64,000 bases of DNA, from assembly GCA_963971425.1 (NCBI GenBank), contig OZ020525.1, positions 1,736,001-1,800,000 on the forward strand. Direction: 5' to 3'. This stretch comes from Bryoerythrophyllum caledonicum (Eukaryota > Streptophyta > Bryopsida > Pottiales > Pottiaceae). Positions within the stretch are counted from its first letter, which is position 1. Each line of letters begins with the position of its first letter. Under the pieces are notes generated by a model. It had not been told where the DNA came from and ran no database searches. It worked only from the letters and a program-made list of their open reading frames with translations. This document shows, one piece after another, positions 1,516 through 40,183 of the stretch. A program made the position numbers and the translations under genes.

Positions 1516-3627
1516 TCACATGTTTGGCGGTGTATCTTCAATTTGTCTTGGCTTGACTCTTCCTTTGATGGCTTTCATGGCTTCAATGGTGGCTTGCATG
1601 GAGTTTTGGATGCTCTCCATTTGAGCAACTAGTTCTTCGTGTAGCTTGTCGGTGTACTCTCGATTTTCTCTTCTCATCTTCTTGTTGTTTTCTTCCAATG
1701 CTTCTACAAGGTCTTTCTTTGTCACGTTGGTGTTGGTGGAAGAAGGGGCATCTTGAATTTTGAAAGTAGCAACGGTATTAACCATGGCGGTGTTGATGTC
1801 ATTGAATCCAAACTTCTCTACTTGTTCTTGAGTTGGTGGTTCCACTCCTTCCAAGCTTCTCCTATGTGGAGCAAAGTCCACATGGTTACCTCCCATGTGG
1901 ATAGTCCTCTTCACGAATTTCCTACACACAATAGGGTTAGCACATTCCACATTGGCACTTCCATTATGTCTCTCTCCATTCTCTTTATGAAACCAAATAT
2001 TTTTTGTGTTATCATCTCCTAGGATTTTGTGTATGGCATTAGTGGTATCCATTACACTCATAAGAATGGGCAAAGGGGAGAGGGTAAGAGTGAGGGCGTC
2101 CTTCTTTGCCTTGGCTTCGGGAGTCATACGTCCACCGGTGAAGGTTTTCTTCGCTTGAAGGACTTCATGTTGAGTTGTAACATGGTGAAGTTGGATCTTT
2201 GATGCTTGTTGCGGGGTGGTGGTGGAGATGAAGGCGTGGGGGTCGCTTGCAACCTTTTGCACCCCGGTGATTTCGAAGTCTTGTCCTCGGTTGAAGCTAT
2301 TATGGAGGATATCCATGAATAGTTGGTGCGCCGGAACACCTATCAAAGCATCACTTCTAATATGCACGGAAAGGTTAGTAGAGTTAGCAATGTGGTGGTA
2401 TGACTTGCAAACTTTCCCAATAACTTTGTGATTGTCTATCACAAGTATGAACGGCCTAAGGCCTTTGAGCAACATGAGTCCATCCGTATCGGGGTTAAGC
2501 AAGTGTAATTTAAACATACCCGTCGATATTCCTTTTTGGCCACCTCTTTTGACACTATGGCATTGGATGTATATGGGGTCGATTAGACTTGTGCCAAGCT
2601 TGATGTCCATTGCTTCTAGTCTTCTAGTTATTATATTATAGACATCATCATGCAACATGCAATTGGTGGGGGGTTCGAAGAATATTGCAACGTGGAAGTC
2701 TAGAGCCAAACCTGTAACCTCATTGATCTTGATGTCTAGTGGGATTTGTGTGACATTGTAGTGTTGTCCTTGTGCTCCTCTCCTCTTGCACGGGTATAGA
2801 AGTTGGGGAATTCGTGGGAATGCTACACTTGCCTCCACTGCCTCCTCTGCTTCGTTGGCTTTGAGGCCTCTGGACATCATTACTTCCGTTGTCTCATCGT
2901 TTGGGGGTGCCTCCAACCCTTCCTCTATTGCTATACGCTCCATGGTCTCAAAGCCTAACCAAAAATTCAGGTCTTTGGTTAGTGGTGAGGTTTTAGTGGA
3001 CTTACCTCTGTTGTCTTGGGCGTTTTTGCTCTTCTTGCTGCTTCCAGATTCTTCGGTGATTTTCCTTGAGCCCTTCTCTTTGGTGGATGAGGCTTCTTGC
3101 ACGACCACCACGTCCACCTCCATCTCTTCTTCAAATACAAGTCCTCTTCTACTACTTATTGTTAGGCAAATCTTATGATGGAGTGGGTTTTGAGTGGGGG
3201 GGGTGAGGGGACTTACCTGGTTACGATGGGGGGCTATGAGGCTGACTTGTGGTGGCTGGATGTGGCCACCAGCTCGAGTAGTCCATTCTCCTTTGGCGGC
3301 CGAGTTTGAAGGATGGGACTGGCTCCTTACTTCAAGTGTTGATGAGTGGAGCGTATAATAGGGCTCCTGTCTTGTGCACTCCGACAATGTTTCTCCTCTG
3401 ATGCCTGCGGCACTCTTCCAGTCTTTGGTTGCCCTTGTAGTCTTCTCTCTTGTGCTGCTTTCCCTCTCGCTCTGCTCTTGTCCTCGTCTCAAGCTCTGGG
3501 TTTGGTCTTGTGGCGGTCGCTCGCGTTTGTCTTCCCTCCCTTTCAGGCGCTCATGCTTTGTGCTCCGGGTTCTATTCAGTCGCTTCTTCTGTTCGTGCCG
3601 GTCCCAGTCTTCCTGCTTCCTCGGCAT
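1516..3627 (-). CDS. LINE ORF1 protein (703 residues, intact)
   Basis: This is an uninterrupted frame of 703 residues. The first 150 residues are rich in R, E, Q and S and may be leader sequence; a second plausible start is the ATG whose first base is 3123, just before an acidic and valine-rich stretch. The middle (about residues 290-560) is ordinary globular sequence that could include an RNA-recognition-like fold, but I cannot assign a named domain and see no CCHC zinc knuckle. The last 90 residues are charged and heptad-like, consistent with a coiled coil for trimerisation. The C-terminal part matches the broken ORF1 at 61,690-62,015, where it again lies upstream of an ORF2. By family analogy it binds LINE RNA and forms the ribonucleoprotein. 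Assignment as ORF1 rests on position and that second copy, not on a recognised domain. Confidence 0.7.
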   Translation of the reverse strand: MPRKQEDWDRHEQKKRLNRTRSTKHERLKGREDKRERPPQDQTQSLRRGQEQSERESSTREKTTRATKDWKSAAGIRGETLSECTRQEPYYTLHSSTLEVRSQSHPSNSAAKGEWTTRAGGHIQPPQVSLIAPHRNQVSPLTPPTQNPLHHKICLTISSRRGLVFEEEMEVDVVVVQEASSTKEKGSRKITEESGSSKKSKNAQDNRGKSTKTSPLTKDLNFWLGFETMERIAIEEGLEAPPNDETTEVMMSRGLKANEAEEAVEASVAFPRIPQLLYPCKRRGAQGQHYNVTQIPLDIKINEVTGLALDFHVAIFFEPPTNCMLHDDVYNIITRRLEAMDIKLGTSLIDPIYIQCHSVKRGGQKGISTGMFKLHLLNPDTDGLMLLKGLRPFILVIDNHKVIGKVCKSYHHIANSTNLSVHIRSDALIGVPAHQLFMDILHNSFNRGQDFEITGVQKVASDPHAFISTTTPQQASKIQLHHVTTQHEVLQAKKTFTGGRMTPEAKAKKDALTLTLSPLPILMSVMDTTNAIHKILGDDNTKNIWFHKENGERHNGSANVECANPIVCRKFVKRTIHMGGNHVDFAPHRRSLEGVEPPTQEQVEKFGFNDINTAMVNTVATFKIQDAPSSTNTNVTKKDLVEALEENNKKMRRENREYTDKLHEELVAQMESIQNSMQATIEAMKAIKGRVKPRQIEDTPPNM

Positions 3628-5103
3628 GTTCCAGACGTTGTCTTGTTCTGGTCTTCTCTTCTGTTTGCAGTAGTCCCAGTCCTTCGGCGGAGGTTGTCGC
3701 TTTGCGTTCGGGTGTGCCCAGGCTAACCACTGGTAGACCTTGTTCGTATTCGTGGGCTTCTTGTCCGGATCTGTCGTCGAGGGTTCCTTGTTTTCTTCAC
3801 TCGTCTTGGATTGGTGTTATTATTGTACGTGCTCCGTCTTCGTGCCTTCGGCTGAAGGTAACCAGGCTGATAATTTTTGGAGGTGCGATGCCTTTTCGTC
3901 CGTCTTTAATCTGTGCCAGGTAGATGTGATCTGCACATACAACGTTTTTAGGTCAGTATTAAGGGGAGTGTGCTTACCTTTGATAATGTGGGCTTGCTGG
4001 TGTTGTCGAGGGACATTGTGATCTATTGATATATCTTCATGCGTCTGTGAGGCATGTGAGGTTAGTCCTGGCGTATGCTCACGGCTGTTGCAGCTTGGGC
4101 GCTTGATGTTGGTGCAAGTGTAGAGGCTGCTCTGCTCCAATGTTGGTGGGGCCTCGTGTTGCTGGCGGTGTGCTGCTTTTCTCGAACTCCGGGTATTGTT
4201 ACCATATGCTTGGTGTTTGAATGTCGATGATGTTTGTCGAGTGGGGCTCGATACTGTTGGGCGCAGTGGTCTTTTGCAGTCTGTTCTTGTCGTGTCGAGC
4301 CAGGCTGAGGTCGGAGGATTTAGGTTTACATAGTCTTGTTGGCAGGTCGAGTGAGTCCTTGGGCCGGGGGTCCTCTGTCTATACTGGTTTGGAGGGGCGG
4401 TTTCACGTGGTCATGGTGGATTGGCGAGGGTTTGTGTTGTTCCTGTACTTCCTTCGAGCTCCTGTGTCTGATTCGGAGAGGGGCTGTCGGGGTCCTGTGT
4501 CGGTCTTGCTCGACCGTTGTATTCCTCTATCGAATTCGGAGAGGCAGGTTCTCGCATGTATGTCCAGGTTCTTGATGGGTTGTCTAGGTCTTGTCTCAGT
4601 CTGTTTATTCCGCCCAATTCATGTGCTAGTCTTGTTCGTCCTTGGATCCAGGGTCTTCTGTCTTCCGTGGGGTTGCTGTTGTGTTTGTATTGGCTCTGAT
4701 GGGTCTTGCTCTGATGCTGTTGTGTCTTGCGTTCTTGTCTGGGTTGCTCCTTGTATCTGCCTCCGCCTATATTAACTTCATAGTCGCGCCCTAAGTGGCT
4801 GTCGATATATTTATTACTGTCAAAAATTTGCCAGAGCTTCCGTGCATCAAGTGAGTTTTCACAAAAATGAAACCTAATGCAGCTTAGTGAGCAACTACCG
4901 TAAGTGTTAAGCTGGATAAGCAACTTGTGATGTGTGTGAAACGATGTGAGAGCAACACATGCAAAGAGTGTAACTGTAAGGGAGAGAAATGGACAAAAGA
5001 GGTGAGGAGTGGCCTGAGTTGAAGTGGAGCTGCTGCAATGTAGTAAGGCTTGTTTGACGTGCTCTCGAATCTTGACTTGTGTGTTCCTGGATCGAGGAGT
5101 TGT
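3628..5103. other. No gene recognised; possible LINE 5' leader, then unique DNA
   Basis: 3628-4790 is T-, G- and C-rich on the plus strand, like the ORF1 leader, and may be the LINE 5' untranslated region. 4790-5103 changes to ordinary AT-rich DNA and stops at the inverted terminal repeat of the large transposon. The open frames on both strands have biased composition and no recognisable domain. Confidence 0.4.
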
Positions 5104-5136
5104 AAACACGCAATTAAGCAATTATGCACTTAGCCA
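5104..5136 (+). repeat. Left terminal inverted repeat of the 13-kb transposon
   Basis: These 33 bases equal the reverse complement of 18115-18147 except for one A/G difference near the inner end. The sequence is AT-rich and includes the partly palindromic word GCAATTAAGCAATTATGC. Subterminal CAAGTGCA words follow and are candidate transposase-binding sites. Confidence 0.9.
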
Positions 5137-5702
5137 AGTGCACTGGTTGGTGGTAGAAAGCCGCAAGTTATTTGCCCATAACTTTTTTTTAAATCAAAAT
5201 TTGGCAAAATTTTAGTATGTTTTTTGTCAAATTTTTTTGGTGTTTGTTGTATCATACATTGGCATCTTTATGTTCATATCAGTAATATATTTTTTCCATT
5301 CGCTAACTTTTTTTTGAAAATATATGATTTCTACTCTAGTTTACAAATCATGCTACAAAATTATGATCATGTGCCCAAAGAGATTATAAATGTGTTATGA
5401 GTTATTATAGGATTTTAGAGTACTGCACTACAAACACAATGTGTAAGAGATACAAAAATATATATGCAAATTCCTAAGACAGTGTAAAGTACCTCACTGT
5501 ATTTTATAATGCAAAAACATACATGATCAAGCAATTCCACACTATTGCTGAGGAATTCTAAAATCAAACATATCATATGGACCACCCAATATATAAATAT
5601 ATACCACCAACCGAACGATAGACACATCTCAAACTGCATAATACTAACGTACTTGCCACCTAAACTGCGTGCATGCTCTACTATAGTATATAGCTCCACG
5701 GC
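5137..5702. other. Left non-coding end of the 13-kb transposon
   Basis: AT-rich DNA between the left inverted repeat and the stop codon of the minus-strand gene. It should hold that gene's 3' untranslated region. I see no further gene. Confidence 0.5.
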
Positions 5703-8700
5703 TCACAACTCATCTGCTGGCGGAACGACTCCCTCCACGTGTCCAATGGCGCTACCTACCATAGCGGATAGTTCATGATCCTCCACTGGACGATCTCCCA
5801 CATCTTCGATGCCAATGGACGCACACTCAACAAATCGGTAATTGCCAGGAACACCCTCCCGCGTATGCCTTACCCTATCATCATTATAGAAAAAGCCATC
5901 CTTTGCATTGAAGGACATCTCTCGCTCTGATGAGAAGGCCCCCTGAAATGCAATGATGTCCTCGGATACGCTAGATCTTGGAACGGGAGGCAAACCTGGT
6001 CCGGTATCACTCTGAGTACCTCCGAACGTCTCTTGTGTCTCCGATACAGGCTCTGATTGAGGAGGCATCGAAGGCTGTCGAATCCTCCTCTGCACCGAAA
6101 AAAATTCACATGAATCCAATCCTTCTTCCTCCATCTCCAACCTAGGACCATCAAATGTACGCCCCCGTCCTGCCCCTGCCGCCAAACTAACATCTACTAC
6201 ACCTGTAACTTGCATATTCTCTATAGGTGTTGCAGACGTCGCCCCTGAAGTATCTCCCACCGTCCGCTGCGTTGATGGAATTCTCTCTCCATCCTCATCG
6301 GCGTCTGAATCACTGCCAGATGAAAAATCTTCAGTGGTACCTGAACGTGGCAATCTCTCATGTAAACCACCTCCATCCTCATTGTCCTCTTCATTCCTCA
6401 CTCCACCAACCACATCTTCGGTCTCAGGTATGGTGTTGCAACCAGTACTTGTTCCACCAGTCCTGACCAACAATTGTCCTTGGAAATTGTCGGACAACTC
6501 ATTGTACAGGAATGAAACTCTGTCTGTACAATCGTCAATGATGAAAACCTCAGATCCCTGGAAATCTCGTTCAATGATCGTGGGAATGGCCGTAGATATG
6601 TTACACGCCACTAAACCCCAACCACGGGGCAAGTATGAGCCCACTAGTCTTGCGAGCTCTGATGGAGATCTCTCAAGTGAATCAACTTCAGAGGGTTGGC
6701 GTGCCTCACTCCAGTGATCCAAGAATACAAGTGGAAGTGGAACGTCTCCAGAAACATAGTTCGGGCCAGGAGATGTACCCACAGGGTGCTGCATACAAAT
6801 CACAACATCGCCAATCGGTTGTACTACTTGCTCCAGACGCCCATTCTCTGTAAAATCAAGAGCATAGGGATTAACCGAGTTGGGATCAAAGGCCCAGCAT
6901 CCACGTCGCGTAGTACATCCCTCTGGAAGCTTCACCTTCGTGAAAAACTCCTCATTGGCATACACAGCCGCAGGTAACAAGAAGATGACGTTCCATCGTT
7001 CAATATTTGCCATCCATAATGTCAGCTGTGCAAAAGCTGCGGATAATTGGGCATCTCCCCAATGACCATCTCCATGCCTCCCACCGCCACGTCGACAATC
7101 AATCACCCACAAACATGGTTTCCCCAACTCTATGTAGTCGGTGCGGAATAATCCTCTTCTACACCGAACCGAAAGAAGATTCTCTGTGTCGCTCTGCCCT
7201 GGCCTCTTGACTTCCATCTGCCATTCCCAATTAGCAGTAGTCAATTCTCCCACATCCACGGACAGTCCAATGTATCCACGCCCCCCTGCTGCAATGTCAC
7301 CATAATGAAACCTGATGGAAGGGGGGATGAGGTAGCCTATGTCTTCCAGTTTAGACACCTTCCCTCGCACAGGAGCACTCCAAGCTTTTTTCGTGGCAAC
7401 ATTCAAAAGCTTCCCAAAGGTATCAAGTTGTGCACTACTCCTCGGAAAATACTTCGCTACACGGATACGAAAGAACTCTTCCATGGAATCAGGTGTACTT
7501 TCCTTGTTCTCCACCATCAACCAACGGATCGAATTCATCACAGCTTCTCGTCTCTGATATCGGTCAACCACACCGGCAATCGTACGAGGATGTGGATTCT
7601 TGTCTTTTACACCGTCGAAGTAATATGCTTGAGAAGGTCTTACTCCATCCTCCCTCACCGGCTTCGCTGCAGCAGACTTTGCCAACCGAAGATAATATGG
7701 ATTCGGAACCCTACCTAGAGGCCTCAACCAATTCTGCGTCATCTCCTTTCTTGTTGGTCGTACGTCCACATTTGGATCCAGCTCTTTCTTCCTCGCCATG
7801 TCCTTCCACTTGTCCTCTTCTTCCTTGCTGTAAAAGAGAATGCCGTCTTCGTAGTCCTTGCATACTTGAATGATAGCTTCGAAGCAGTCATTGCTCGGAT
7901 TCCATGCATGATTGGTCAGATCCTCCATGTTTTTGGCCAACCTCTTCACCGTGACAACTCCATCCCCCTTGGGCAACTTATGCACTGCACTTGCCGCACT
8001 CACCAAAGCAACAGCCCTGCGTGCATCGTCCGCACGTAGTGTGCTATCAGGCCTCCCGTATAGATTCCAAATCTGACGGAGCTTCCTCAAATCCTCCTCC
8101 ATGGTAGAATATGAATGTCTCTGGAACTCCGCCACGTTGATCCGCGCAGACTTCTCAATGTAAAAGCGACGATCATCATACACCACAAAAGAGGCCTCCC
8201 GTCGCTCAAACGTGTCCAGATACTCGTTTAAAGACATAGTACCATCTCTCCACTGCTGCTGTGCAAACTTACAAGCTGCTACTATGTGTTGCCCATCCAC
8301 CGGTTCCCAAATGATATGATCTTGAAGCCAAGAATACTGGGATCCCATAGCACCCTGTGCAGATGCACTCCCGTGTGCAATGAACATGCGCTCAAACTCT
8401 CGTGCGGTTCCTACCAACGGAAATGGCAGCTCTTCCTTCTCAACGACACCATCATCGGTGGTAGTATGCACGATGTATCTGATCGGTCGAAGTACCAATC
8501 TACTCACCCGAGTCGCGGATTCTGGGTCCCGTAAGCGGTTGAATACTTCTATGACCCTCTTCTGTGATAAAACCCGGTGGTTGGTTTCTGGATTCTCCAC
8601 AGAGACAATGCGGTCTATGTGTGCCTTAAACACAAAATTCCCCCACACTGATCCTTTCGCAATCTCCTCTGTTGTAGGCACTGGTGCTTTTAAATTCATT

Positions 8701-9647
8701 GGAGTTGGTAGATCCTGTGGTATCTCCGCATTGTCTTCAAAATCCTCTGGTATACTGTCTGGAAGGTTGTGAAAATCTTCTTCCTCCGGCGCCATGGCTG
8801 ACAAATCAGCTAAATCTCCCGGTGCAGATGTAGGGGCCCTACGATGACCATCAGACGTCCTGAGCCCCGACCTAGGAATCCTGGCACCTGATCTTGCACT
8901 TCTCCCAATCAACCTCCTCCCACTTGGATCCAAACTTGATGGGCCTTCTCTTGAACCAGAAGCTACATCACTGTCAACACGTCGTGGCCTCTTCGTAGGA
9001 CGTCTACTCGTTAATGGAGGATTCGGTAATGTCTGTACCTCAGAAGTTGTGGCGGGATGTTGGTCTCCACTTCCTCTCCCCCCCTCCAGTGGTCGCCAAT
9101 CCAGTTGCAACGGCTCAGCAAGAATTCGATAAACTTCTGTTTCTTCCGGTTCCGCTGGTGGGGCTTGAGTTGTCGCACGTGATGGGTCCCTCTCCCGAAA
9201 TGCCTCATATCGAATATGTTCCTCCATAATCTTCTTAGCCTTCAGCACCATCTCCGATGATAACGCTAAACAGGCTAAGACGTTGTTGTGTCTAGCAGTA
9301 CGTACTGCAAGAGAGATGTTCAACCAAAACGTCTGCAATGATTTGAGGAATTTCACTTGACCTGGATTTTGAAGAAGATTCAAAGGGACAGGTGCAAGAA
9401 GCAACTTCTTCGAAAGAGAAGTCTTCACCTCCGATTGACCTGGACCCACTGCGCAAGTAATGTATACCATATCATCACGTCGAAGAGTGATTGCTTGGAT
9501 TTTGCCAAAACTCTTCCCCAACGCCGATGTACGCTTTCCCAACTCAAAGGGATAATCTGTCACCCACAAGAAGGCGTTCGACTCATCCACTTCCGCGATC
9601 CACCAGCCGTGGCTCTCCCAGATTCTATCAATATTTGGTGGTGCCAT
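5703..9647 (-). CDS. ParB-like / degenerate N6-N4 methyltransferase-like transposon protein (1314 residues)
   Basis: The frame is open up to 9788, but sequence above 9650 belongs to a miniature repeat also found elsewhere, so the ATG at 9647 (MAPPNIDRIW) is the likely start. Residues 1-170 are globular and unassigned; 170-330 are proline-, serine- and arginine-rich with a basic cluster (RRPTKRPRR, near 220) that could be a nuclear signal. At 451-454 the motif VDGQHIVAA resembles the DGQHR box of ParB-like domains and is followed by a YDDRRFYIEK strand. Residues about 840-890 contain WVIDCRRGGG where permuted beta-class DNA methyltransferases have DPPY. Near 990-1035, ERSPSELARLVGSYLPRGWG and the strand after it match the SAM-binding region of that class, with the usual F-x-G-x-G-T-T replaced by NISTAIP. 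The C-terminus is acidic. ParB-methyltransferase fusions are known in bacteria and phages. Both key motifs are altered, so this copy is probably non-catalytic or uses divergent chemistry. The methyltransferase call is inference. Confidence 0.55.
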   Translation of the reverse strand: MAPPNIDRIWESHGWWIAEVDESNAFLWVTDYPFELGKRTSALGKSFGKIQAITLRRDDMVYITCAVGPGQSEVKTSLSKKLLLAPVPLNLLQNPGQVKFLKSLQTFWLNISLAVRTARHNNVLACLALSSEMVLKAKKIMEEHIRYEAFRERDPSRATTQAPPAEPEETEVYRILAEPLQLDWRPLEGGRGSGDQHPATTSEVQTLPNPPLTSRRPTKRPRRVDSDVASGSREGPSSLDPSGRRLIGRSARSGARIPRSGLRTSDGHRRAPTSAPGDLADLSAMAPEEEDFHNLPDSIPEDFEDNAEIPQDLPTPMNLKAPVPTTEEIAKGSVWGNFVFKAHIDRIVSVENPETNHRVLSQKRVIEVFNRLRDPESATRVSRLVLRPIRYIVHTTTDDGVVEKEELPFPLVGTAREFERMFIAHGSASAQGAMGSQYSWLQDHIIWEPVDGQHIVAACKFAQQQWRDGTMSLNEYLDTFERREASFVVYDDRRFYIEKSARINVAEFQRHSYSTMEEDLRKLRQIWNLYGRPDSTLRADDARRAVALVSAASAVHKLPKGDGVVTVKRLAKNMEDLTNHAWNPSNDCFEAIIQVCKDYEDGILFYSKEEEDKWKDMARKKELDPNVDVRPTRKEMTQNWLRPLGRVPNPYYLRLAKSAAAKPVREDGVRPSQAYYFDGVKDKNPHPRTIAGVVDRYQRREAVMNSIRWLMVENKESTPDSMEEFFRIRVAKYFPRSSAQLDTFGKLLNVATKKAWSAPVRGKVSKLEDIGYLIPPSIRFHYGDIAAGGRGYIGLSVDVGELTTANWEWQMEVKRPGQSDTENLLSVRCRRGLFRTDYIELGKPCLWVIDCRRGGGRHGDGHWGDAQLSAAFAQLTLWMANIERWNVIFLLPAAVYANEEFFTKVKLPEGCTTRRGCWAFDPNSVNPYALDFTENGRLEQVVQPIGDVVICMQHPVGTSPGPNYVSGDVPLPLVFLDHWSEARQPSEVDSLERSPSELARLVGSYLPRGWGLVACNISTAIPTIIERDFQGSEVFIIDDCTDRVSFLYNELSDNFQGQLLVRTGGTSTGCNTIPETEDVVGGVRNEEDNEDGGGLHERLPRSGTTEDFSSGSDSDADEDGERIPSTQRTVGDTSGATSATPIENMQVTGVVDVSLAAGAGRGRTFDGPRLEMEEEGLDSCEFFSVQRRIRQPSMPPQSEPVSETQETFGGTQSDTGPGLPPVPRSSVSEDIIAFQGAFSSEREMSFNAKDGFFYNDDRVRHTREGVPGNYRFVECASIGIEDVGDRPVEDHELSAMVGSAIGHVEGVVPPADEL

Positions 9648-9710
9648 AATGCAACACTCAAAAAACCTGTATATCATTACAAAACGATAGTCACTATTAG
9701 TATGGAATAA

Positions 9711-10500
9711 GAATTTTTGAACCACCACTGATTGCACAATTTTTTTGAACATGCAACACCCCTTGTCTACGTTTAAAAATTTTTGCACTACGGAAGATCT
9801 AAATCCAATACCATTGTGTTAAGCATGTTGTTAGTTCTTTGGTGAAATAGCATATTAATCCAAATCAATTATTTTCACACATTGTCACACATTTTCGGCC
9901 AAAGTACTAAAAACACTTCTACCTTTCTACATAAATCTTCGAGATCTTCGTATGATTCACTTTTGATTTTTCCTACGGCATTATGTCATGTAAACCTTCT
10001 AATTGACCATTTAGATTCTAATTTCAAACAAAATGAAGTTAAAAAATAAATAAATAACATGAATTAAGAATTTTTGAACCTCCACTCATTGTACAATTTT
10101 TTAGAATATGCTACACTCCTTTTCTACCTCTAAAAACTTTTGCACTATACAAGATCTAAATCCAATAGCATCGCGTGAAGCATGTTGTTAGTTCTTTGGT
10201 AAAATAGCATATCAATCCAAGTCAATTATTTTCACACATTGTCACACATTTTCGGCCAACGTACCAAAAAAACCACTACCTTCCCACATAAAATTTTGAG
10301 ATCTTCGTATTATTCACTTTTGATTTTTCCTACAACATTATGTGATGTAAAACTTCTTATTGACCATTTGGATTCTCATTTAAAACAATATCGAGTTCCC
10401 CAAAAAATATAACGTGAATTGAGAATTTTTGAACCTCCACTCATTGCACAATTTTTTTGAATATGCTCCACTCCTTGTCTACCTCTAAAAATTGGTACAT
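9711..10500 (+). repeat. Tandem duplication (357 and 355 bp) of a miniature element directly upstream of the ParB-like gene
   Basis: The word GAATTTTTGAACC begins units at 9711, 10068 and 10423; the first two units are near-identical in layout and the third continues into the rest of the element to about 10,800. The same sequence occurs in the miniature elements at 13,221, 18,755 and 39,358. The block ends about 65 bases from the ATG at 9647, so it supplies most of the gene's upstream region. Confidence 0.8.
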
Positions 10501-11005
10501 AGCAAACTAACATCATGATTAACATTATGGTAATTAATTGAGACCCTTTAAAATGCAAAAATTGGACACCAATTGAAGTCAAAGTCTGCTGATCCATAAA
10601 ACGCAGGGATGAAAATGAGCCTATTCTCAATTTCAAACATTATAATCTTTCAATCCGTGCGGTCAAACTTTATGAAATTTTGTGAGTATATTACTTAATA
10701 GGTGTTTATTGAGATCCTGCGGTTAAAACTATAAAAAAACCTTCATTTTTTCATCCAAGATAATTGCACTAAAACAAGCATTTTTAAGGAGTTTTGGTTG
10801 AGATATTCACTACACCATTTATGGACTATGGTACTTTGGGTATCAATAGAGAGGGTATCACATCCAGGGTATGAATTCATGGGTACAAACATCCGGTTAT
10901 CAACATATATTGGATCAGGGTATCAATTAGGGTTTCAAATTTAGGGTTTTGTTTAGAGGGTATCAACTGAGGATATCAATCCTTAGACCCTTGGGTAGTG
11001 CAAGG
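10500..11005. other. Remainder of miniature element, then GGGTATCA-rich stretch; no gene
   Basis: Up to about 10,800 this is the 3' part of the same miniature-element family as 13,221-14,159. From 10,840 to 10,990 degenerate GGGTATCA and TTAGGGTTT words recur. No coding signal is seen. Confidence 0.5.
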
Positions 11006-11029
11006 AGGGGTGTGCGCGCGCACACCCCT
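11006..11029. repeat. Perfect 24-bp palindrome with alternating CG core
   Basis: AGGGGTGTGCGCGC continued by its exact reverse complement makes a perfect palindrome of 24 bp. The core is alternating purine-pyrimidine, which favours cruciform or Z-DNA. A 22-bp version lies at 11942-11963. Confidence 0.9.
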
Positions 11030-11039
11030 GCCATAGTTC

Positions 11040-11335
11040 TGTGGAGGCTGTGAGCGTGAGAGAGGGTTTGGAGGAGGGAGATGCTTGTGAGAGTGTTGTG
11101 TGTTTGTGAGAGAGGGCTTGTGAGAGGCTTGTGGGTTCGTGAGAGAAGGGCTTGTGAGGAGAGAAGATTTGTGAGGGAGAGGAATGGAGGGGAGGTGTGT
11201 GGAGAGAAGAGTTGTGAGGGAGAGGAATGGAGGGGAGGTGTGAGGGAGAGAAATTTGGTTGCGGCTAGGGTTTGGGAGAGAGAAGAAAAAAGATTGGGGG
11301 TTGTGAGGAATGGTGGGGAAAAAAAAAAAAAAAAG
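11040..11335 (+). repeat. GTGAGAGAGGG-rich purine tract; no gene
   Basis: Degenerate repeats of words such as TTGTGAGAGAGGG and GGGGAGGTGTG, ending in an A-run at 11,320-11,334. Purine-rich sequence creates an artificial open frame here; nothing about it suggests a real protein. Confidence 0.6.
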
Positions 11336-11705
11336 TAGCCGCAGCGGCTGCGCCAGGCCGCAGCGCCTGCGCCAGGCCGNNNNNNNNNNNNNNNNNNNNN
11401 NNNNNNNNNNNNNNNNNNNNNNNNNNNNNNNNNNNNNNNNNNNNNNNNNNNNNNNNNNNNNNNNNNNNNNNNNNNNNNNNNNNNNNNNNNNNNNNNNNNN
11501 NNNNNNNNNNNNNNNNNNNNNNNNNNNNNNNNNNNNNNNNNNNNNNNNNNNNNNNNNNNNNNNNNNNNNNNNNNNNNNNGGCCGCAGCGCCTGCGCCGGG
11601 CCGCCGTGCCTGGGCCAGGCGGCAGCGAGGGCTGCCGTGCCGGCTGCCTGGCCGGGCTGCCGTGCGGGCTGCCTTGCAGGGCTGCCTCGCAGGGCTGCCG
11701 CGCAG
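11335..11705. repeat. GC-rich minisatellite containing a 200-N assembly gap
   Basis: Units of about 19 bp around CGCAGCGCCTGCGCCAGGC flank a gap of exactly 200 N (11380-11579); the right side turns into GGGCTGCCGTGC-type repeats. A gap of round length placed in GC-rich tandem repeat means the true array length is unknown. Confidence 0.9.
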
Positions 11706-11941
11706 GTTACTAGTGATTGGGGTTACTAATGATTGGGGTTACTCATCATGATGCTACTCATCATGATGGTTTTGGGTATGGCTCACAGAAACTCCGGGCG
11801 CAGAAACTTTTAGTGTTGATTGTCATGGTGTACAGGAACCCACGAAGCTCTTTCTCACTTTCGTCGAGAGGAATCACGAAGGTCCTTGCATGAGGTTTGA
11901 GCCAAGAAGTTTTTGGATGAATGGAGGAGCACCAGGAGTTG

Positions 11942-11963
11942 GGGGTGTGCGCGCGCACACCCC
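11942..11963. repeat. Perfect 22-bp palindrome, partner of the one at 11006
   Basis: GGGGTGTGCGC followed by its exact reverse complement. With 11006-11029 it brackets about 0.9 kb of GC-rich repeat and the gap, suggesting the pair could mark the ends of an inserted unit. Confidence 0.85.
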
Positions 11964-12000
11964 ATGAGGCGTTACGCGAACGCCATGGGGAACGAGGGGA

Positions 12001-12115
12001 CTAGGGTTTGGTTTTAGGGTTTGGGTTTCTAGTTGTGGCGGCTAGGGTTTGGTTCTGGCGGCTAGGGATTGGTTGCGGCGGTTAGGGTTTGGCTGCGGCA
12101 GCTAGGGTTTGAACT
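12001..12115 (+). repeat. Degenerate GCTAGGGTTTGG minisatellite with telomere-like core
   Basis: About five to six units of roughly 20 bp carry TAGGGTTT, the core of the plant telomere repeat TTTAGGG, spaced by GGTTGCGGCG-like sequence. It is an interstitial minisatellite, not a telomere. Confidence 0.75.
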
Positions 12116-13216
12116 AGTGTGCTGATGTGCCATTCCATAGATTTAGTGCCACACTACGGGCTACTCACATTACTGAAGTTTTCAGTGGGTTTTGGTGTCA
12201 CTTTGATGTTACTAGTTGACTGACTAGTTGTAAACAAATAACTTCTGTTGTATTTGTAATTTTTGAACATACTGAAGGTGTCCTCGTTTGTATGCTCAAA
12301 TATTGGTACTGCTGACCTTACACTATTGTAAATCTGACCGATCTATTATCATCATAAACCTAACCCTGGAGTTCCCTCGGATTCAGAATTGAAACAAGGT
12401 TAGAAGCTTACCAAATTTGCAGAAGTCTCCTCGATGTGCAAATTTCCTTCAATCTACACGGTCCACACAAAGTTGACAGAAGTCAGTGACTGAAGTAAAA
12501 ACGCACATGGCCTTGAGCTTTCGATTGCAAGAGAGCTTACCTTAGGTACTGGGAAGAGAAATGACCTCCAGATTTTCACAGAAACCTTATATCCATGCTG
12601 GAAACTTGTGCCTGAAGTATACTAGTCAAAATTTGACTTTCGAAATTTGGACCTTTTGCTTTGTATTTTCTTATGTTTAAAATTTTTACATAATATATTA
12701 AAATTTTGGGCTATATGTAATACGAAGATACATAGGAGTTTTTATCACATAGTTTACCATATAAATTTTATGCATGTGTCGCAGGTAAAGTGGGAAGGGT
12801 TGAAAAACATGTCCAATAACGACAGAATGGTGATTCAATGTTTAACGCCATCAAGCATCAGTGCGTGTACCACTAATACCTGCTACGTATCTTGAGGTAA
12901 ACATTTATTTTTATACAAGTTTAAGATTGATTATTGATTGATCTTCTATACTATGTTGTTTGTAGAATAACTTTTATGTGGATGTACAAACCTTTCTTTT
13001 ATTAGGGATTGTAACAAGTTCCAATGGTTGCAGTAATAGCTCGTAGACAACATGGTTCATTTTCTTCCCTAGGTTCAGTGGATTCCCTCCGTTTTCAGTT
13101 CACTTGGATTCAAAAGATTGCATCACACCTGATCTAGATTCATTATCATCATGTCAAGACTGATATAAGTTCCATTTTACACCAATGTTTAAGGATACAA
13201 TAGAGGTGTAGCATAT
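12116..13216. other. No gene recognised between the two transposon genes
   Basis: AT-rich sequence of mixed composition. Short open frames (for example 12,647-12,895) have no recognisable features. It may contain the 5' untranslated region or promoter of the transposase gene, but no motif decides this. Confidence 0.4.
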
Positions 13217-13220
13217 TTAG

Positions 13221-14159
13221 CCCCTAAAGGATCATGTGTCATAAATAAGATTTTTCAAAATTTAGGCACGTTCCTATGGTGTCAGTTTCCAACATTCCTT
13301 CTTTGAAAATTTTACTATAGAAAGGCATTACCAAGACTTCAGTGGAAAAACAATTTTTACCTTAATTGGACATTTGATAAAAAAATATAAGGGTTTTGAA
13401 TTTCAAATGGGGAGAGCGGGCAAGTCCGACACGTCCAAAAACTTTTGCTTAGACACTCTGTTAAATGTGAGATTTTCAGTACTTGCAAGTAATATTATTT
13501 CCTTTGATGTTGTCAAAATAAGTTCTTGTCTTTAGTGAAAAATAACATACCAACACAAACATTTTCACACATTGTCAGCCAGTGTTGGGCAAGGTATCCA
13601 CAAAACGTCTTGTTTTTCAAATAAAACCTAGATATCTTTTTATTTTTTAGTTTTTATTTTTTCCAGAACAATATGTGGTGTAAACCTTCTTATTGACCTT
13701 TTGGAGTACCAATCTAAAACATATTAAGTTCACAAAAATCTACAGAGTGAATTAACAAATTCCGAACTTCCACTCCTTGCTCAATTGTTTTGAATATGCT
13801 ACACCCGTTCTCTACCTCTAAAAATTGGTGTACAAGGAACTAACATCATGCTTAACAAGATGGTTATGGATTTAGACCTTCTGTAGTGCAAAAATTTGAC
13901 ACCAAGTGAAGTCAAAATCTACTAATCCACTCCACGCAGGAAAGAAAATGAACCATATGCTTGACTCAAACACTATTATCTTTCAATCTGTGCGGTCAAA
14001 GTTTATGAAATTTTGTTTATATATTACTTAATAAACCTTAAGTGAGATCCTACGGTCAAAACTAGAAATTAAATTTTTCGTCTCCATTTTTGTTTATTGC
14101 ATTAGAATCCAACAATTTTGAAGTCTTTTTTGTGTAAGACTGTCAGTGTACCTTCAGGG
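13221..14159 (+). mobile_element. TTAA-type miniature element, full-length copy (939 bp)
   Basis: It starts CCCCTAAAGGATCATGTGTC after TTAG (13217-13220) and ends with the reverse complement of CCCTGAAGGTACACTGAC before TTAA (14160-14163). The interior matches 18,755-19,686. The TTAA flank and CCC-starting inverted ends are hallmarks of piggyBac-type elements. It has no coding capacity and sits in the intergenic space of the 13-kb transposon, so it inserted later. Confidence 0.7.
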
Positions 14160-14381
14160 TTAAAGACTCCGTGCAAGGAATTCATGCTCTACAAATTCTA
14201 ATTTATTTCATTTCAAAGCAGTTTTATCAAAAAGTCCAATTTCATCATCATATTTTGAACAGTAAATATGTGTTTAGAAACATTTCTTTTATTAGATGAA
14301 TGGTGCTTTGAAGGTTTAGAATTAGTACATGTATTTTGACTAATGTGCAGCCATAATGTTCCTATGTTTTTAATAGTGATA

Positions 14382-17300
14382 ATGGAGAGCCGCACGATTC
14401 AGACTCCTTCGATACGGCCACACATCCAAATGGATAATATACATTCCAATAGCTCAGTGGGGGCTCGTTTAGTACGAGCAGCACGTGCAAGGAAAATTCA
14501 ACAGAGATCTGTTGGGATCATGACATCTGAATTAGATACGGCCGTAGAATTGCTTTCTGAGAGAGGAGATGTGGTGGGCTTAGCAACTAGGGAGCATGCA
14601 TTCAAAAGTGGCATGGAATTGAATGGGTCGAAGTTGTTCCCATACGAGGTGGCGGTGCGTATCACTAGGGTAGATGATGCATTGCATTGGACCGGAGAGA
14701 TTGTAGGAGAACGCCTTGGCATGTGTATGGGCTTGATCATTCGTTGGCATCGGTCTTTGCTACGTGTAGTGGCTGTAGAACCTGATATTACAGGTGTCCA
14801 TGGTGACATTGGATCACAGATAGCGCCTGCACAAGTGATGGCTCCAGAATTTAATTTCCCTGAGTTCATCAACACACCTGGATCCACCCAGAGGTCTCGA
14901 CGCAGTAGTCAAGCTTCTAACGCCATAGATGAAAATTCGCCGTTTTCCCAGCCTACTCCCTCAAATATCCAAGATTTGCCCCATGTAGATGGATTTTCTT
15001 ATCTGAGACCAGCACGTCGTCCCTATTCTATGCAAAATAGGAGAAGGAGAGATTCAAGGGAGACATCATTGACAGAAGCTGGACCATTCAAGGTATCGCT
15101 TAGAAGCGTGCAAATTGCAATGGCACAAGGAGGATGCAAACGCAATTGTTTGAGGGACGTTCCAGCAAGGTATCTATTGGACATGCGATATAATGCATGG
15201 GCTACTGAGTTTTCAGTACGAAGTACGTGGATGAGACAGATGTTGGTTTCTTTTTATACAAGGACGGAAGGAACTCGTCGAGACAAGTTTGTAACAAAGT
15301 TAGATGGGAAAGAAATTTGCAATGCTTGCTACGCTCTTGGGGTTGGATATTCACAGAGGCGCTTTAAGCAATTGAAGAAGGACTGTCTAATATATGGGAG
15401 AGTGACATCGATTCACGGCAATACCCTTTCAGATCCGATCAGAGAGAGCACTAGAATGTCTGCAGCAGATGCTTGCTTTAAATCATTTGTCGATGAAGCT
15501 GGTTGTCCTCAACCTCATCGTTGTATTCGCCGTAAGAGTGACAACGAAGTGGTGCCTCTCATTCTCCTTCCTATGAATACAGCCAAATTTGATGTATTCA
15601 ATTACGTGAACGAGGAGGTCAAGAGAATTTGTAATGGAGAAACCATTTCTATGAGTTCGTTCCGGAGGATGTGGCGCATCAAATATCCCCACGTTCAGGT
15701 ACCTCCATTCTCAAGATTCTCAAAGTGTTATCATTGTTGGGAGTATAAATGTGCCATGGAGGGAACCACCAATGCGGATGCAAGGATAAAGATAAAGGAG
15801 TTGTTTATGTTGCATCTGCGCAACCAGATGGAAGAACGTAGGCATTATTGGATATTCAAGAGGTCGTGTTATATTAGCCCTGAGTTGTACATGTGCATCA
15901 TAGTGGATGGCATGGACCAAAATACGACCATGGTACCGAGGATGCGTCAGACTGTGAAGAACATTGAACACCGATTTGTGAAGACCCATCTATGTGGTGC
16001 TCTTGTACATGGGATTGGTTTATATTGCGACGTGTGGTTTGGGGCTCACCACAAACACGATAGCAACCAAGTCGTGAGTACATTGTTGTACGTGATAGGA
16101 GATGTGTTGCGGAGGAGGGGCTTTTTGCCACCAACACTGCGAATTCAGGCGGACAACTGCACACGTGAGAACAAAAACATTTATATGTTTGCTCTATGTG
16201 CTACATTGGTGGGATTGGGGTTTTTTCAGGAGGTAGAACTATCTTTTCTCATAGTGGGCCATACACACGAAGATATTGATCAACGCTTCAGTTGTATATC
16301 AAATACGTTGAAGAGGTCGGACGTGGATTCGTTGAAGGAAATGATGAGTCTTATAGAACGAGGAACATCCCCTACGGAGGCATTTGTTAGCGCGCGGCTG
16401 CTAGAGAATGTATGGGATTGGAAAATGTTCATAACTCCTCACTTATTGACAGGTCAGGATTCATTGGTGGGCATAACATTTCCGCACCACATGCGATTCT
16501 ATATGGACAATCGAGAAGGGACTCGTGAGGTTCGAGTACAACACAAGCATTATTGCAAGGATCCATGGGGACCGGAGGTAGGGACGAAAACTTTGAGGTC
16601 ATTGCCAAATAGGGATGAGCGACCATCGTTTGCGGAAGTATTTGCAGCGGACGAACGGGAGTTGAAGGCGTTGGATGACTTCATTACATATAAACAAAGG
16701 TGCATTCAACGGTTGCAGCATGAGGACAAGAATCGTGAGGCAAAAGTAGAGGCTGAAAGATTGAAACTCTATTTAGCTCAATTTCCACACAAAGACCGTA
16801 GCAATGAGCATCGTACCTCACCGTTTTGGCCTTCAGAGTTTTCCAACATCGGACCTACAGAGAGTGCATCTTTGGATGTAATGGATGGTGCAAGTGAAGA
16901 AAATCGCGAGGTACATGTCGTAGAGCAGGTAGTGGCCATGCTTCCAAATGCCGAGGCTCGAGGATACTTTGGTCCTCGTAGAGGAAGACCCTCTAATCAA
17001 GCAGTGCGTAGGGCACAACAAATAGAGCGCAACTATGTTGAGGAACGCGCCGAAGAAGGAGCAATGTATGAAGGTAATCACGACCCATTTCCACCATTTA
17101 ATCCACAATCTGATATCCGTTGTGGACAGTTTGTAGCCTTGAGTGTTGATCGAGCAGAGATAGAAGGCGGTGTACCATTCTATGTGGGGAAAGTGATTGA
17201 GGAAGGAAAAAACCGATGGAGACTTAAGATTAAAGTTTGTTGGTATTGGCCCATCATCCAAAGGGGGGTTGCTGATGGACATGGATCTTCTGCACAACGA

Positions 17301-17573
17301 TATGCGAATTGCATGGATTCATTCTGGGAGCCATCTGGGGAGAACCATAGTTGGGTAGAGAAAGATGCATGCATTTTTTCATGGGTAGACACACCGGAAA
17401 GAACCATGTCCGGGGCCAACGGGTGCAGAAAGCGCAATGTATTTGGAGTGCAAGTTGAAAGCAGGATTCGCATTCTTCAATCGGCAAAGGCTCACATCCT
17501 ACAATATATTGCAATGCAAACCGAAGCTATCGATGACGACCGTTTGCAAGCAGCCCTAAATTCTATGGAGTAG
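14382..17573 (+). CDS. DUF7869-type DDE/D transposase (1063 residues, intact)
   Basis: The frame is open from 14343; the ATG at 14382 (MESRTIQTPS) is the preferred start because the preceding 13 residues look non-coding. Residues 300-340 hold a cysteine-containing segment with CNACYALGVGYSQRRF, typical of the region before the catalytic core in this family, and CYHCWEYKC occurs near 450. The RNase H-like core shows three acidic positions on expected strands and helix: IIVDGMDQ (D509), QADNCTRENKN (D591) and LSFLIVGHTHEDIDQRFS (E630/D631). The ADNC-ENKN and LSFLI-GHT blocks match DUF7869 proteins of plants and other eukaryotes. Residues about 915-965 (PFYVGKV, then VCWYWP) resemble an SH3-like chromatin-binding fold. 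It should cut and join the inverted ends of its own element. It is transcribed away from the ParB-like gene. Family assignment is from motifs. Confidence 0.75.
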   Translation: MESRTIQTPSIRPHIQMDNIHSNSSVGARLVRAARARKIQQRSVGIMTSELDTAVELLSERGDVVGLATREHAFKSGMELNGSKLFPYEVAVRITRVDDALHWTGEIVGERLGMCMGLIIRWHRSLLRVVAVEPDITGVHGDIGSQIAPAQVMAPEFNFPEFINTPGSTQRSRRSSQASNAIDENSPFSQPTPSNIQDLPHVDGFSYLRPARRPYSMQNRRRRDSRETSLTEAGPFKVSLRSVQIAMAQGGCKRNCLRDVPARYLLDMRYNAWATEFSVRSTWMRQMLVSFYTRTEGTRRDKFVTKLDGKEICNACYALGVGYSQRRFKQLKKDCLIYGRVTSIHGNTLSDPIRESTRMSAADACFKSFVDEAGCPQPHRCIRRKSDNEVVPLILLPMNTAKFDVFNYVNEEVKRICNGETISMSSFRRMWRIKYPHVQVPPFSRFSKCYHCWEYKCAMEGTTNADARIKIKELFMLHLRNQMEERRHYWIFKRSCYISPELYMCIIVDGMDQNTTMVPRMRQTVKNIEHRFVKTHLCGALVHGIGLYCDVWFGAHHKHDSNQVVSTLLYVIGDVLRRRGFLPPTLRIQADNCTRENKNIYMFALCATLVGLGFFQEVELSFLIVGHTHEDIDQRFSCISNTLKRSDVDSLKEMMSLIERGTSPTEAFVSARLLENVWDWKMFITPHLLTGQDSLVGITFPHHMRFYMDNREGTREVRVQHKHYCKDPWGPEVGTKTLRSLPNRDERPSFAEVFAADERELKALDDFITYKQRCIQRLQHEDKNREAKVEAERLKLYLAQFPHKDRSNEHRTSPFWPSEFSNIGPTESASLDVMDGASEENREVHVVEQVVAMLPNAEARGYFGPRRGRPSNQAVRRAQQIERNYVEERAEEGAMYEGNHDPFPPFNPQSDIRCGQFVALSVDRAEIEGGVPFYVGKVIEEGKNRWRLKIKVCWYWPIIQRGVADGHGSSAQRYANCMDSFWEPSGENHSWVEKDACIFSWVDTPERTMSGANGCRKRNVFGVQVESRIRILQSAKAHILQYIAMQTEAIDDDRLQAALNSME

Positions 17574-18114
17574 ATAGTGTGCCTTTTTTAGAGTATACTA
17601 GTTGTGTATGGTAATTGATATATACTGTATGTGTAAGAGTAGTATATTCTAAGGGTGATGTAAGACGTTATGTCATTAATCCTTTAGAGTAAAGCTGTGT
17701 TTACTATCGGTGCTAAGTCCAATTGTTGAAGCATCTATATTTAGTTTTCACCATTGTATGCATTATGTACTATGTAGAATATCTTTTAATCAACTGCCAA
17801 CCCTTGCAAAAAGTATGTTTTTTTGTAATTACGTCTGTTTATATATTACAATTCTTCAAATCTATCTTTGGAATATTGTGAAACTATATTAAATACACAT
17901 TTATCTAGTATTAACGAAGGGATACCACAAATTAGTTGAAAATGCCAAAAAATCGCTTCCAATATGAACAACCATAATTGTACATAATATTGTTGCAGAA
18001 GCTCAATTTTTTTTCCTTAGGAAAACATTTTTTTTCTTTGATTTTTTTTTTTTTTTTTCAATTTTGCCACTTTTGTTCGCAATGGCCGCCGTTGTACCCA
18101 AGTGCACTTTTAAA
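17574..18114. other. Right non-coding end of the 13-kb transposon
   Basis: AT-rich DNA with T-runs at 18,000-18,060. It should contain the transposase 3' untranslated region. A CAAGTGCACTTT word near 18,099 mirrors the left subterminal motif. Confidence 0.5.
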
Positions 18115-18147
18115 TGGCCAAGTGCATAATTGCTTAATTGCGTGTTT
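18115..18147 (-). repeat. Right terminal inverted repeat of the 13-kb transposon
   Basis: Reverse complement of the left end with one mismatch in 33. The six bases outward (18148-18153) read CACTAC on the minus strand, the canonical start of CACTA elements, but the left end does not share it. Confidence 0.9.
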
Positions 18148-18153
18148 GTAGTG

Positions 18154-18754: not shown

Positions 18755-19686
18755 CCCCTAAAGGATCAAGTGTCTCTTGGAGGGACCGTTTTTGCTTTTG
18801 GGCAAGTTCCTAAAATCTGAAAAGAAAAAAAGTTCATTGTGAAATTTTTATACTAGATTGTACGTGATGATATCTTTGTGGAGATATTTTAAAAGTTTTT
18901 TTGCATTCATAATATGAAAGTTATTAGCCTTCAAAGTCAAATTGGGGACTTTGGGCAACTCCAAAAGTTTTGCTAGATTTCTGTTGAGATTTTGCTAGAA
19001 GTTTTGCTAGAAGTTTTGCTAGAAGTTTCCATTGAGATTTTTCATGCATATAAAAAATATCACCCTCTTCGAAGATGTAAGAAAAAAAAATCTTGTATTT
19101 AGTGTAGTTTTAAAAAAAAACTTAAGTCATTAAACCTAGAGATCCGCATATTTTTCACTTTTTAATTTTTCAACAACAATATGTGGTGAAAACCTTCTTA
19201 TCGACCGTTTGGATTATCATTCTAAAACATATATAATTCTCAACAAAAAAAAGAAAGTGAAATAGAAATTATTGAACCTCCAGTCCTTGTATACTTCCAT
19301 ATGCCCGCCCATGTGGAAACTCGATGTTTTGAATATGCTACACATCCCTTCTCTACCTCTAAAAATTGGTGTATAGGGAACTAACATCATGTATAACACA
19401 ATGGTAAAAGATTTAGACCTTGTGTAGTGCAAAACTTTGATACCAAGTGAAATCAAAGTGTAGTGATCCACTCAACGCAGGGATGGAAATGAACCATTTT
19501 CTTAACTTCAAACACTATAATCTTTCTATCTGTGCACTGAAAGTTTTTGAAATTTTGTGAGTGTATTATTTAGTCACTCTTAATTGAGATCCTATGGTCA
19601 AAACCATGTATATAAGGTTTTGTTTCCTTCCTTACTCATTGCACTAGAAGTTTTTTTGGTGTGAAATTGTCATGGTCCTTTAGGGT
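18755..19686 (+). mobile_element. TTAA-type miniature element, full-length copy (932 bp)
   Basis: It begins CCCCTAAAGGATCAAGTGTC after CTAA and ends with the reverse complement of ACCCTAAAGGACCATGACA before TTAA (19687-19690). The interior carries the family hallmark near 19,320-19,390, a block reading CTACCTCTAAAAATTGGTG. No coding capacity. Confidence 0.75.
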
Positions 19687-23659: not shown

Positions 23660-24530
23660 TTTTCTAGTGCAATGAATAAGGAAGGAAACAAAATATTGTA
23701 TTTCTAGTTTTAACCGCAAGATCTTAATGAATAGCATACTCTCAAAAGTTCATCAACTTTGACCGCACAGATTAGAAGATTATAGTGTTTGACGTAGGAA
23801 GGTGGTTGATTTTCATCCCCGCGATGTGTAGATCAACAGACTTTGGCTTTACTTGGTGCCAATTTTTTGCACTAGGCAAGGTCTCAATTTTATATCATCA
23901 TGTTGATCATGATATTAACTCCTAGTACACCAATTTTCAAAGATAGGGAAGGGGTGTAGCGTATTCAAAGAATTGTACAAGAGTGGAGGTTTGAGAAGTG
24001 CCAATTCACGTTTTCGTTTTTTGGGAACAAAATATGTTCTGGAGTGATTATCTGAATGGTCAATAAGAAGGTTTACACCACATATTGTATTATTTAATTA
24101 TAATTTTTTTTGTAAAAAATATGAAGACCTCAAATTTTTAAGTAGAAAAGAAGTTTTTTTAGTTCCTTGCTTGATAATGCGTGGCAATGTGTGAAAATCT
24201 TTGACTTGGGATAAAATGCATTTTCCCACTAAAGACAAGAAATGCTTTCTGACAAAGGAAATAATATTACTTGCTAGTATTGAAAATCTCAAATTTGTTA
24301 GTGTCATAGAAAAAGTTTTTGGAGTTGCGCGAGGTGCCCACACTCAACAATTTTTTTCTTTAAAATGGCATAAATTTTTTTTCTATAAGTCCGATGAGAA
24401 TAAGAATTGTACTCACGTACCTCTTGTCTTCTTGCATCTCTGTACAAAGTTTCAAATGTAAATTGCAACCATGGAAACGTGCCCAAGATTTGCAAAAGTC
24501 CACCTTGGGACTTTTGTCACTTAGGGGATA
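23660..24530 (-). mobile_element. TTAA-type miniature element, minus-oriented copy
   Basis: Reads in reverse the same blocks as 18,755-19,686, starting near CTTATCCCCTAAGTGAC (24,530) and stopping at TTTTCTAGTGCAATG where the SINE begins. The SINE therefore abuts or inserted into its end. Confidence 0.6.
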
Positions 24531-39799: not shown

Positions 39800-40180
39800 A
39801 GGTCCAACCTCCAAACGGAGGCCGGCGTGAATAGAGTGTCTGCTTGTTCCACTTACTAAAACGATGACCACTGGACAAAGGATTAGTATGAGGGAACTAC
39901 TTCCCCCTTTTGAGGGTAGACACTAAAATATAAACAAATGAACCAAGCATAGAAAAAAATAGGAAGTTCTCAAGATGGTTGTGGCGACTTTGATTGGTTT
40001 TAAGAGGTATAAGGATCGGGTAGAGGTTGGTTGTTTTCTAGTCTTCTTTTATGGAGGAGAATGGACATAGCATGTTGGATAGCGATGGTATTGAAGTTTT
40101 TGAAGGTATATTTAATGGAGGTCATTGAGATTTTAAACGTGGTTTCCAGTGCTTTCATGGGGGGAATATGAGTGGTAGCT
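39800..40180 (-). pseudogene. 5'-truncated LINE 3' end (copy 4)
   Basis: On the minus strand, 40,180-40,000 encodes the C-terminal ORF2 block (ATTHIPPMKALETTF, then AIQHAMSILLHKRRLENN) matching 50,930-51,110. The 3' untranslated region and an AAGAAGAAGAAGG (TTC) tail follow. It abuts, with no spacer, the truncated start of a plus-strand copy at about 40,184. Confidence 0.75.
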
Positions 40181-40183
40181 CTA

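Follow-up and report, generated by a model that had tools for sequence, protein, structure and literature searches.

We suggest that a 13,042-bp element at positions 5105 to 18146 of a 64,000-nucleotide stretch of the moss Bryoerythrophyllum caledonicum (contig OZ020525.1, positions 1,736,001 to 1,800,000; the whole stretch is called the window here, and plain coordinates are counted within it) is probably an autonomous, DDE/D-like transposon with two genes, the second of which would supply an accessory and probably DNA-binding protein. Our sequence searches cover the 437-Mb genome, in which the window is C14:1736001-1800000, and there the element is apparently a large, recently active DNA transposon whose related copies number in the hundreds. 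Its extent was set by comparing ends and flanking 4-bp duplications across seven complete copies. Terminal inverted repeats and a target duplication of fixed length, the two marks of a terminal inverted repeat (class II) transposon, are both present. A sequence-only reading of the window had reported two long, divergent and intact genes encoding 1063 and 1314 residues, and the open reading frame listing contains both.

The left terminal inverted repeat occupies positions 5105 to 5136 (forward strand), is 32 bp long and begins AACACGCAATTAAGC; the right one, at 18115 to 18146 (reverse strand), is also 32 bp long and differs from the left by one mismatch, both being placed by repeat search and copy comparison. 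The inverted-repeat search itself returned arms of 33 nt at 5104-5136 and 18115-18147, 97% identical, and the sequence-only reading had likewise given the ends as 33 bp with one mismatch. The inverted ends and the single mismatch stand, but the length is 32 bp and base 33 belongs to the target duplication. In the window this duplication is TGTA, at 5101 to 5104 on the left and 18147 to 18150 on the right, and every one of the seven complete copies is flanked by a perfect 4-bp repeat (TGTA, AAAC, TGAA, TATA, TATG, GTAA and TAAA). Since the flanks always match over four bases and never over five (0/7), the true end lies one base inside the one first proposed. Chance is excluded by two controls: a 27-mer from the end has 1911 sites in the genome when up to two mismatches are allowed, against none for the control pattern, and the 4-bp match seen in 7/7 true flank pairs disappears (0 of 42) when left and right flanks of different copies are combined.

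The comparison took in twelve copies or part-copies, the window copy included. Seven are complete (the window copy, C14:1675952, C9, C11, C10, C7 and C4), span 12.1-13.0 kb and are 98-100% identical over their main aligned pieces, a single 167-bp piece of C4 standing at 97.6%. The other five (C8, C464, C3, C849 and C7:28804700) show a single end only in the stretch fetched. The copy at C14:1675952, on the window's own contig at a distance of 65 kb, is 99.9-100% identical to the window copy in the aligned parts, yet its flanks differ and its duplication is AAAC rather than TGTA; near-identity combined with different flanks and duplications shows movement, not local duplication. DNA of both genes is present in 7/7 complete copies between the same ends, so that the genome search with the end sequence, which the sequence-only reading had put forward as a check, bears out the view of the two genes as one mobile unit.

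Gene-specific patterns are also numerous, with 615 genome sites for a 30-mer of gene 1 and 483 for a 32-mer of gene 2 (up to three mismatches each; controls 0). Among the first 100 exact ends listed, 27 have an inward-facing neighbour within 26 kb, against four neighbouring pairs oriented otherwise. Twelve of the 27 pairs are of full size (11.3-14.4 kb), eleven are short (2.2-7.1 kb), one measures 9.9 kb and three measure 19-25 kb. At least eight of the twelve full-size pairs enclose at least one gene copy among the matches listed; none of the eleven short pairs does, and gene-less derivatives with the same ends therefore appear to exist. An inverted repeat unlinked to the genes had been named in advance as an observation that would tell against the two-gene unit, and these 11 of 27 inward pairs without a listed gene are of that kind; they nonetheless fit, and look like, deletion derivatives of the autonomous element.

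Gene 1 (14382 to 17573, forward strand; supported by the open frame, Pfam and the substitution ratios given below) encodes a DUF7869 protein of 1063 amino acids that is the likely transposase. Its frame is open from 14343 to 17573, giving 1076 amino acids from the first ATG at 14343 and 1063 from the internal ATG at 14382. The DUF7869 domain, residues 544-726 (15972 to 16520, forward strand), is matched in Pfam at an E value of 7.6e-51; the earlier designation is supported in that a DUF7869 protein is the likely transposase. The protein carries the motif VDGMD (521) and, within the domain, ADNC (603), ENKN (609) and GHTHEDID (639), and its acidic motifs look like those of a DDE/D transposase, a reading we infer from the motif layout together with the anatomy of the element. 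The GHTHEDIDQ pattern has no match in prokaryote genomes, a DUF7869 family search of control genomes was negative in 14 of 14, and searches of viral contigs, made with each of the two proteins and also with one motif pattern for each, confirmed no relatives.

Both proteins are under constraint, and the ratio of amino-acid-changing to silent substitution rates (dN/dS) is much alike in gene 2 and the transposase gene. For protein 1 it ranges from 0.24 to 0.46 between the window copy and seven others, and for protein 2 from 0.30 to 0.44 against five differing copies, a sixth being identical; the change counts behind these ratios are small in the youngest copies. Free of stops are 18 of 43 scored protein-1 matches and 6 of 34 protein-2 matches, although the protein-2 query began 47 residues ahead of the likely start and some stops may therefore fall outside the gene, as seen in copy L052. 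Both genes are stop-free in three of the seven complete copies, namely the window copy, C14:1675952 and C11.

The two genes also recur together. Pairing was scored with a 201-residue piece of protein 2 (150 matches scored of 880 candidates) and a 193-residue piece of protein 1 (150 of 2882), a pair being allowed if divergent with pieces starting 4-13 kb apart; the distances observed were 6.9-12.3 kb. For each gene at least 74 of the 150 matches have a head-to-head partner in the other list, where random placement gives a mean of 0.27 and a maximum of 2. Combining all lists raises this to at least 77 of 150 for each gene, with four cases lying near each other in another geometry. Exact motif sites (61 and 91) form at least 19 divergent pairs and none in another geometry, and a merged motif set (68 and 93 sites) forms 23, against a random mean of 0.13.

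Gene 2 (5703 to 9647, reverse strand; delimited by its open frame, dN/dS and family searches) encodes a 1314-residue protein without a recognised family. Its frame is open from 5703 to 9788; a GTG start would give 1361 residues, and the ATG at 9647 gives 1314. The shorter form is favoured because in copy L052 (97% identical) a stop takes the place of residue 20 of the long form and because the first residues of the long form overlap a repeat family; the part upstream of the ATG is probably not coding. The best-conserved part, residues 380-560 (8109 to 8651, reverse strand) in an alignment of eight copies, contains a VDGQH stretch, and of seven parts compared residues 376-570 show the fewest amino-acid changes per codon. 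The conserved fragment at 8109-8711 yielded 150 scored genome matches at 93-100% identity.

Between the divergent genes lies a core with a 22-bp perfect palindrome, GGGGTGTGCGCGCGCACACCCC, which the repeat search placed at 11007 to 11028 and again at 11942 to 11963, and which is a new observation beyond the sequence-only reading. All eight copies that align to the region hold it, either singly or twice, the remaining four of the twelve not aligning there, and it occurs at 746 genome sites with up to one mismatch (control 0). At least 24 of the first 50 sites listed stand upstream of gene 1 or gene 2 in one of the copies listed, where random placement gives a mean of 0.25 and a maximum of 3, and 22 of the 26 sites within range of listed ends are found inside element ends, the random mean there being 0.37 and the maximum 3, which makes the palindrome largely the property of this element family. 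The core further holds units of a repeat some 355 bp long, located at the 5' end of gene 2 and farther out (9703 to 10774; repeat families D1-D5), another copy of that repeat upstream of gene 1 (13542 to 14107; families D1, D2 and D4), short tandem arrays and a GC-rich stretch. Copy comparison identified 200 N at 11380 to 11579 as an assembly gap within the GC-rich core, and exactly 200 N stand in the core of all seven complete copies at differing positions; apparently the assembly could not read through this core, and its stated length is an assembly length. The hairpin potential of the two GC-rich pieces flanking the gap is not above that of shuffles. DNA about 70-84% like the core repeats also occurs outside the element, at 19128-19649 and 23743-24323, perhaps as remnants of older relatives.

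We posit that transposition would be of the cut-and-paste type, with protein 1 as the putative transposase. Protein 1 would bind the 32-bp ends and insert the element with a 4-bp stagger, and acidic residues in IIVDGMD, ADNC and GHTHEDID are candidates for its catalytic triad. Protein 2 would act as an accessory protein, most likely a sequence-specific DNA binder on the repeated and palindromic core between the divergent genes, and could serve as a regulator, an anti-silencing factor or a partner in the transpososome. The gene-less copies with the same ends would have moved in trans. A more specific form of this proposal strikes us as unlikely: protein 2 would represent a new class of transposon-encoded sequence-specific DNA binder with the 22-bp palindrome and the repeats near it as its targets, in a self-recognition like that of parS-ParB or VANC, and would be needed for the activity of a superfamily with the as yet uncharacterised DUF7869 as its transposase.

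Several observations weigh against the proposal of an autonomous two-gene element with a DNA-binding accessory protein. Family searches found no recognised DNA-binding domain in protein 2, and the sole structure model of protein 1, predicted from the single sequence, is unusable at a predicted local distance difference test score (pLDDT) of 34. Constraint on protein 2 is uneven: residues 791-1090, the supposed methyltransferase part, show 26 amino-acid-changing against 11 silent codon changes in six comparisons among young copies, which is close to zero constraint, and several other parts of the protein also show more changing than silent changes. The exact palindrome is kept in only 1 of 11 short end pairs, so that a need for it in cis in the moving of short copies seems unlikely. 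For each gene, 76 of 150 matches have no partner among the other gene's 150 listed matches; such lone copies had been named beforehand as evidence against a joint unit, yet incomplete match lists and decay may explain them. Among 68 further DUF7869 matches, picked by eye outside the 150 scored, 64 lack a listed partner, the partner lists reaching down to about 93% identity only, with older subfamilies falling outside the pairing counts.

The sequence-only reading had called protein 2 a ParB/methyltransferase-like protein, and an enzyme of that kind, methylating or nicking the DNA of the element, is one alternative to the accessory binder proposed here. We consider it quite improbable. What speaks for it is the VDGQH-IVAA stretch, which by eye resembles a motif of the ParB/sulfiredoxin superfamily and is the sole reminder of ParB in the protein, and, in the C-terminal half, a succession of segments that by eye might pass for a beta-class methyltransferase. 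DNA N6/N4 methyltransferases are marked by a catalytic motif IV, [DNS]PP[YWF], and a motif I that binds S-adenosylmethionine, [FW]xGxG; both are absent from protein 2. An alignment of phage fusions shows DPPY and GGSGS-type stretches. The ParB/sulfiredoxin superfamily is described as having a conserved active-site arginine (PMC5512222), and the GxHR/GxRR arginine is missing from the VDGQHIVAA stretch of protein 2, assuming that this is the right stretch. Pfam returned no match, for the whole protein up to an E value of 1 or for five pieces up to 10, and neither NCBIfam nor PADLOC returned one; the best PHROGs match, phrog_14324, has an E value of 0.049 and no assigned function. The profile-profile comparison suggested as a check was made with hhalign against a purpose-built alignment of nine annotated phage ParB-methyltransferase fusions, the search for which started from a Vibrio phage D93 gene (Pfam N6_N4_Mtase at an E value of 7.9e-10, with a ParB_N match under the cut-off). 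Protein 2 or its parts reached probabilities of 0.07-0.33%, and shuffled sequences scored as high or higher in 92 of 100 cases for the ParB part, 31 of 100 for the methyltransferase part and 66 of 100 for the whole protein. In leave-one-out controls on three of the nine fusions, whole proteins reached 100% and the ParB part 96.5-99.7%; these controls are related far more closely than protein 2 could be, and a very remote relation may still exist. With Pfam, PHROGs, NCBIfam, PADLOC, PDB, phage or plasmid records and the comparison with the nine fusions all negative, weak or at chance level, the ParB-methyltransferase identity was rejected as a candidate; the label is not supported and would best be dropped until the structure is known. 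The best PDB match of protein 2, a designed helical repeat protein (E value 0.0015), was set aside as well, consisting of three weak stretches each with an E value of at least 11. As to the broader claim made alongside the label, we infer that protein 2 may bind or modify element DNA.

Two further alternatives accept the element and differ on what protein 2 does. It is possible, if somewhat doubtful, that the transpososome needs protein 2 as its second subunit for cutting or joining, in the manner of ORF1 of PIF/Harbinger, and that the protein is not a regulator of silencing or expression. That the genes recur as a pair and are similarly constrained agrees with this, as does the known need of PIF/Harbinger for two proteins (PMC2836001); yet protein 2 is without a family match of any kind. 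Alternatively, a single successful lineage might have captured gene 2 as a passenger without a role in transposition. Capture has precedents, as in the TET/JBP genes taken up by fungal DNA transposons of several lineages (PMC12730594) and the Fanzor genes carried by members of several superfamilies (PMC3627910), but gene 2 is present in every complete copy with a dN/dS about that of the transposase gene. We regard mere carriage as quite unlikely. An accessory, probably DNA-binding, protein is the reading that we prefer for protein 2.

Known two-gene transposons offer parallels to this preferred reading. VANDAL elements have a transposase of another family, as do PIF/Harbinger elements, which moreover duplicate 3 bp of target against 4 bp here. 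The conspicuous site in the present element is a 22-bp palindrome, and the likeness of VANC to protein 2 is drawn by analogy. VANC, encoded by VANDAL elements, binds a short, tandemly repeated motif and removes methylation (PMC5735166). VANDAL, a Mutator-like element (MULE), resembles our element in carrying, besides the transposase gene, a second gene of another kind, as well as repeats in its non-coding part. PIF/Harbinger resembles it in encoding two separate proteins (PMC2836001). The fungal TET/JBP-carrying transposons likewise combine a transposase with a second gene, one thought to counter silencing (PMC12730594), but protein 2 has no TET/JBP or other Pfam domain. VANC, ORF1 of PIF/Harbinger and the captured TET/JBP genes should be taken as parallels and not as demonstrated relatives. 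Phage and bacterial ParB-methyltransferase fusions share with protein 2 the VDGQH seen by eye, without significant profile similarity and without the catalytic motifs. Sola elements (Sola1 and Sola2) share with the present one a 4-bp AT-rich target duplication, terminal inverted repeats and a long transposase; Sola2 has AWWT duplications, ends of 12-21 bp and an 888-residue protein (PMC3627910), and the AT-rich 4-bp duplication would fit Sola2. Unlike Sola2, the present element has 32-bp ends, and the second gene described there is Fanzor1 (PMC3627910). A RecQ helicase is reported there for the Academ superfamily (PMC3627910), and Pfam finds no helicase domain in protein 1 or protein 2. In the titles and abstract beginnings of the literature searched, the pairing of a DUF7869 gene with such a second gene is undescribed. 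The term DUF7869 appears in no paper of that literature; Repbase and subscription journals, in which the family may already figure by a different name, lie outside that scope.

Other frames in the window belong to different sequences. A 358-residue frame at 62844-63917 (reverse strand) matches DDE_Tnp_1_7 (PF13843) at an E value of 6.3e-69 and represents a second, unrelated transposase gene, which we take to be of the piggyBac type. A 469-residue frame at 40172-41578 (forward strand) matches the reverse transcriptase family RVT_1 (E value 3.9e-27), and one of 501 residues at 28009-29511 (forward strand) matches Glyco_transf_34 (6.9e-56) and is probably a host gene. Adjoining the element, a 703-residue frame at 1516-3627 (reverse strand) has no Pfam match at E values up to 1.

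DUF7869 is a Pfam name without a function, and in the copies described here it goes with precisely defined ends and a target duplication of 4 bp. That makes DUF7869 a strong candidate transposase with many copies, in some of which both genes are free of stops. The recurrent second gene, with the palindrome, offers a concrete and testable case of a partner protein encoded by a transposon together with its possible site.

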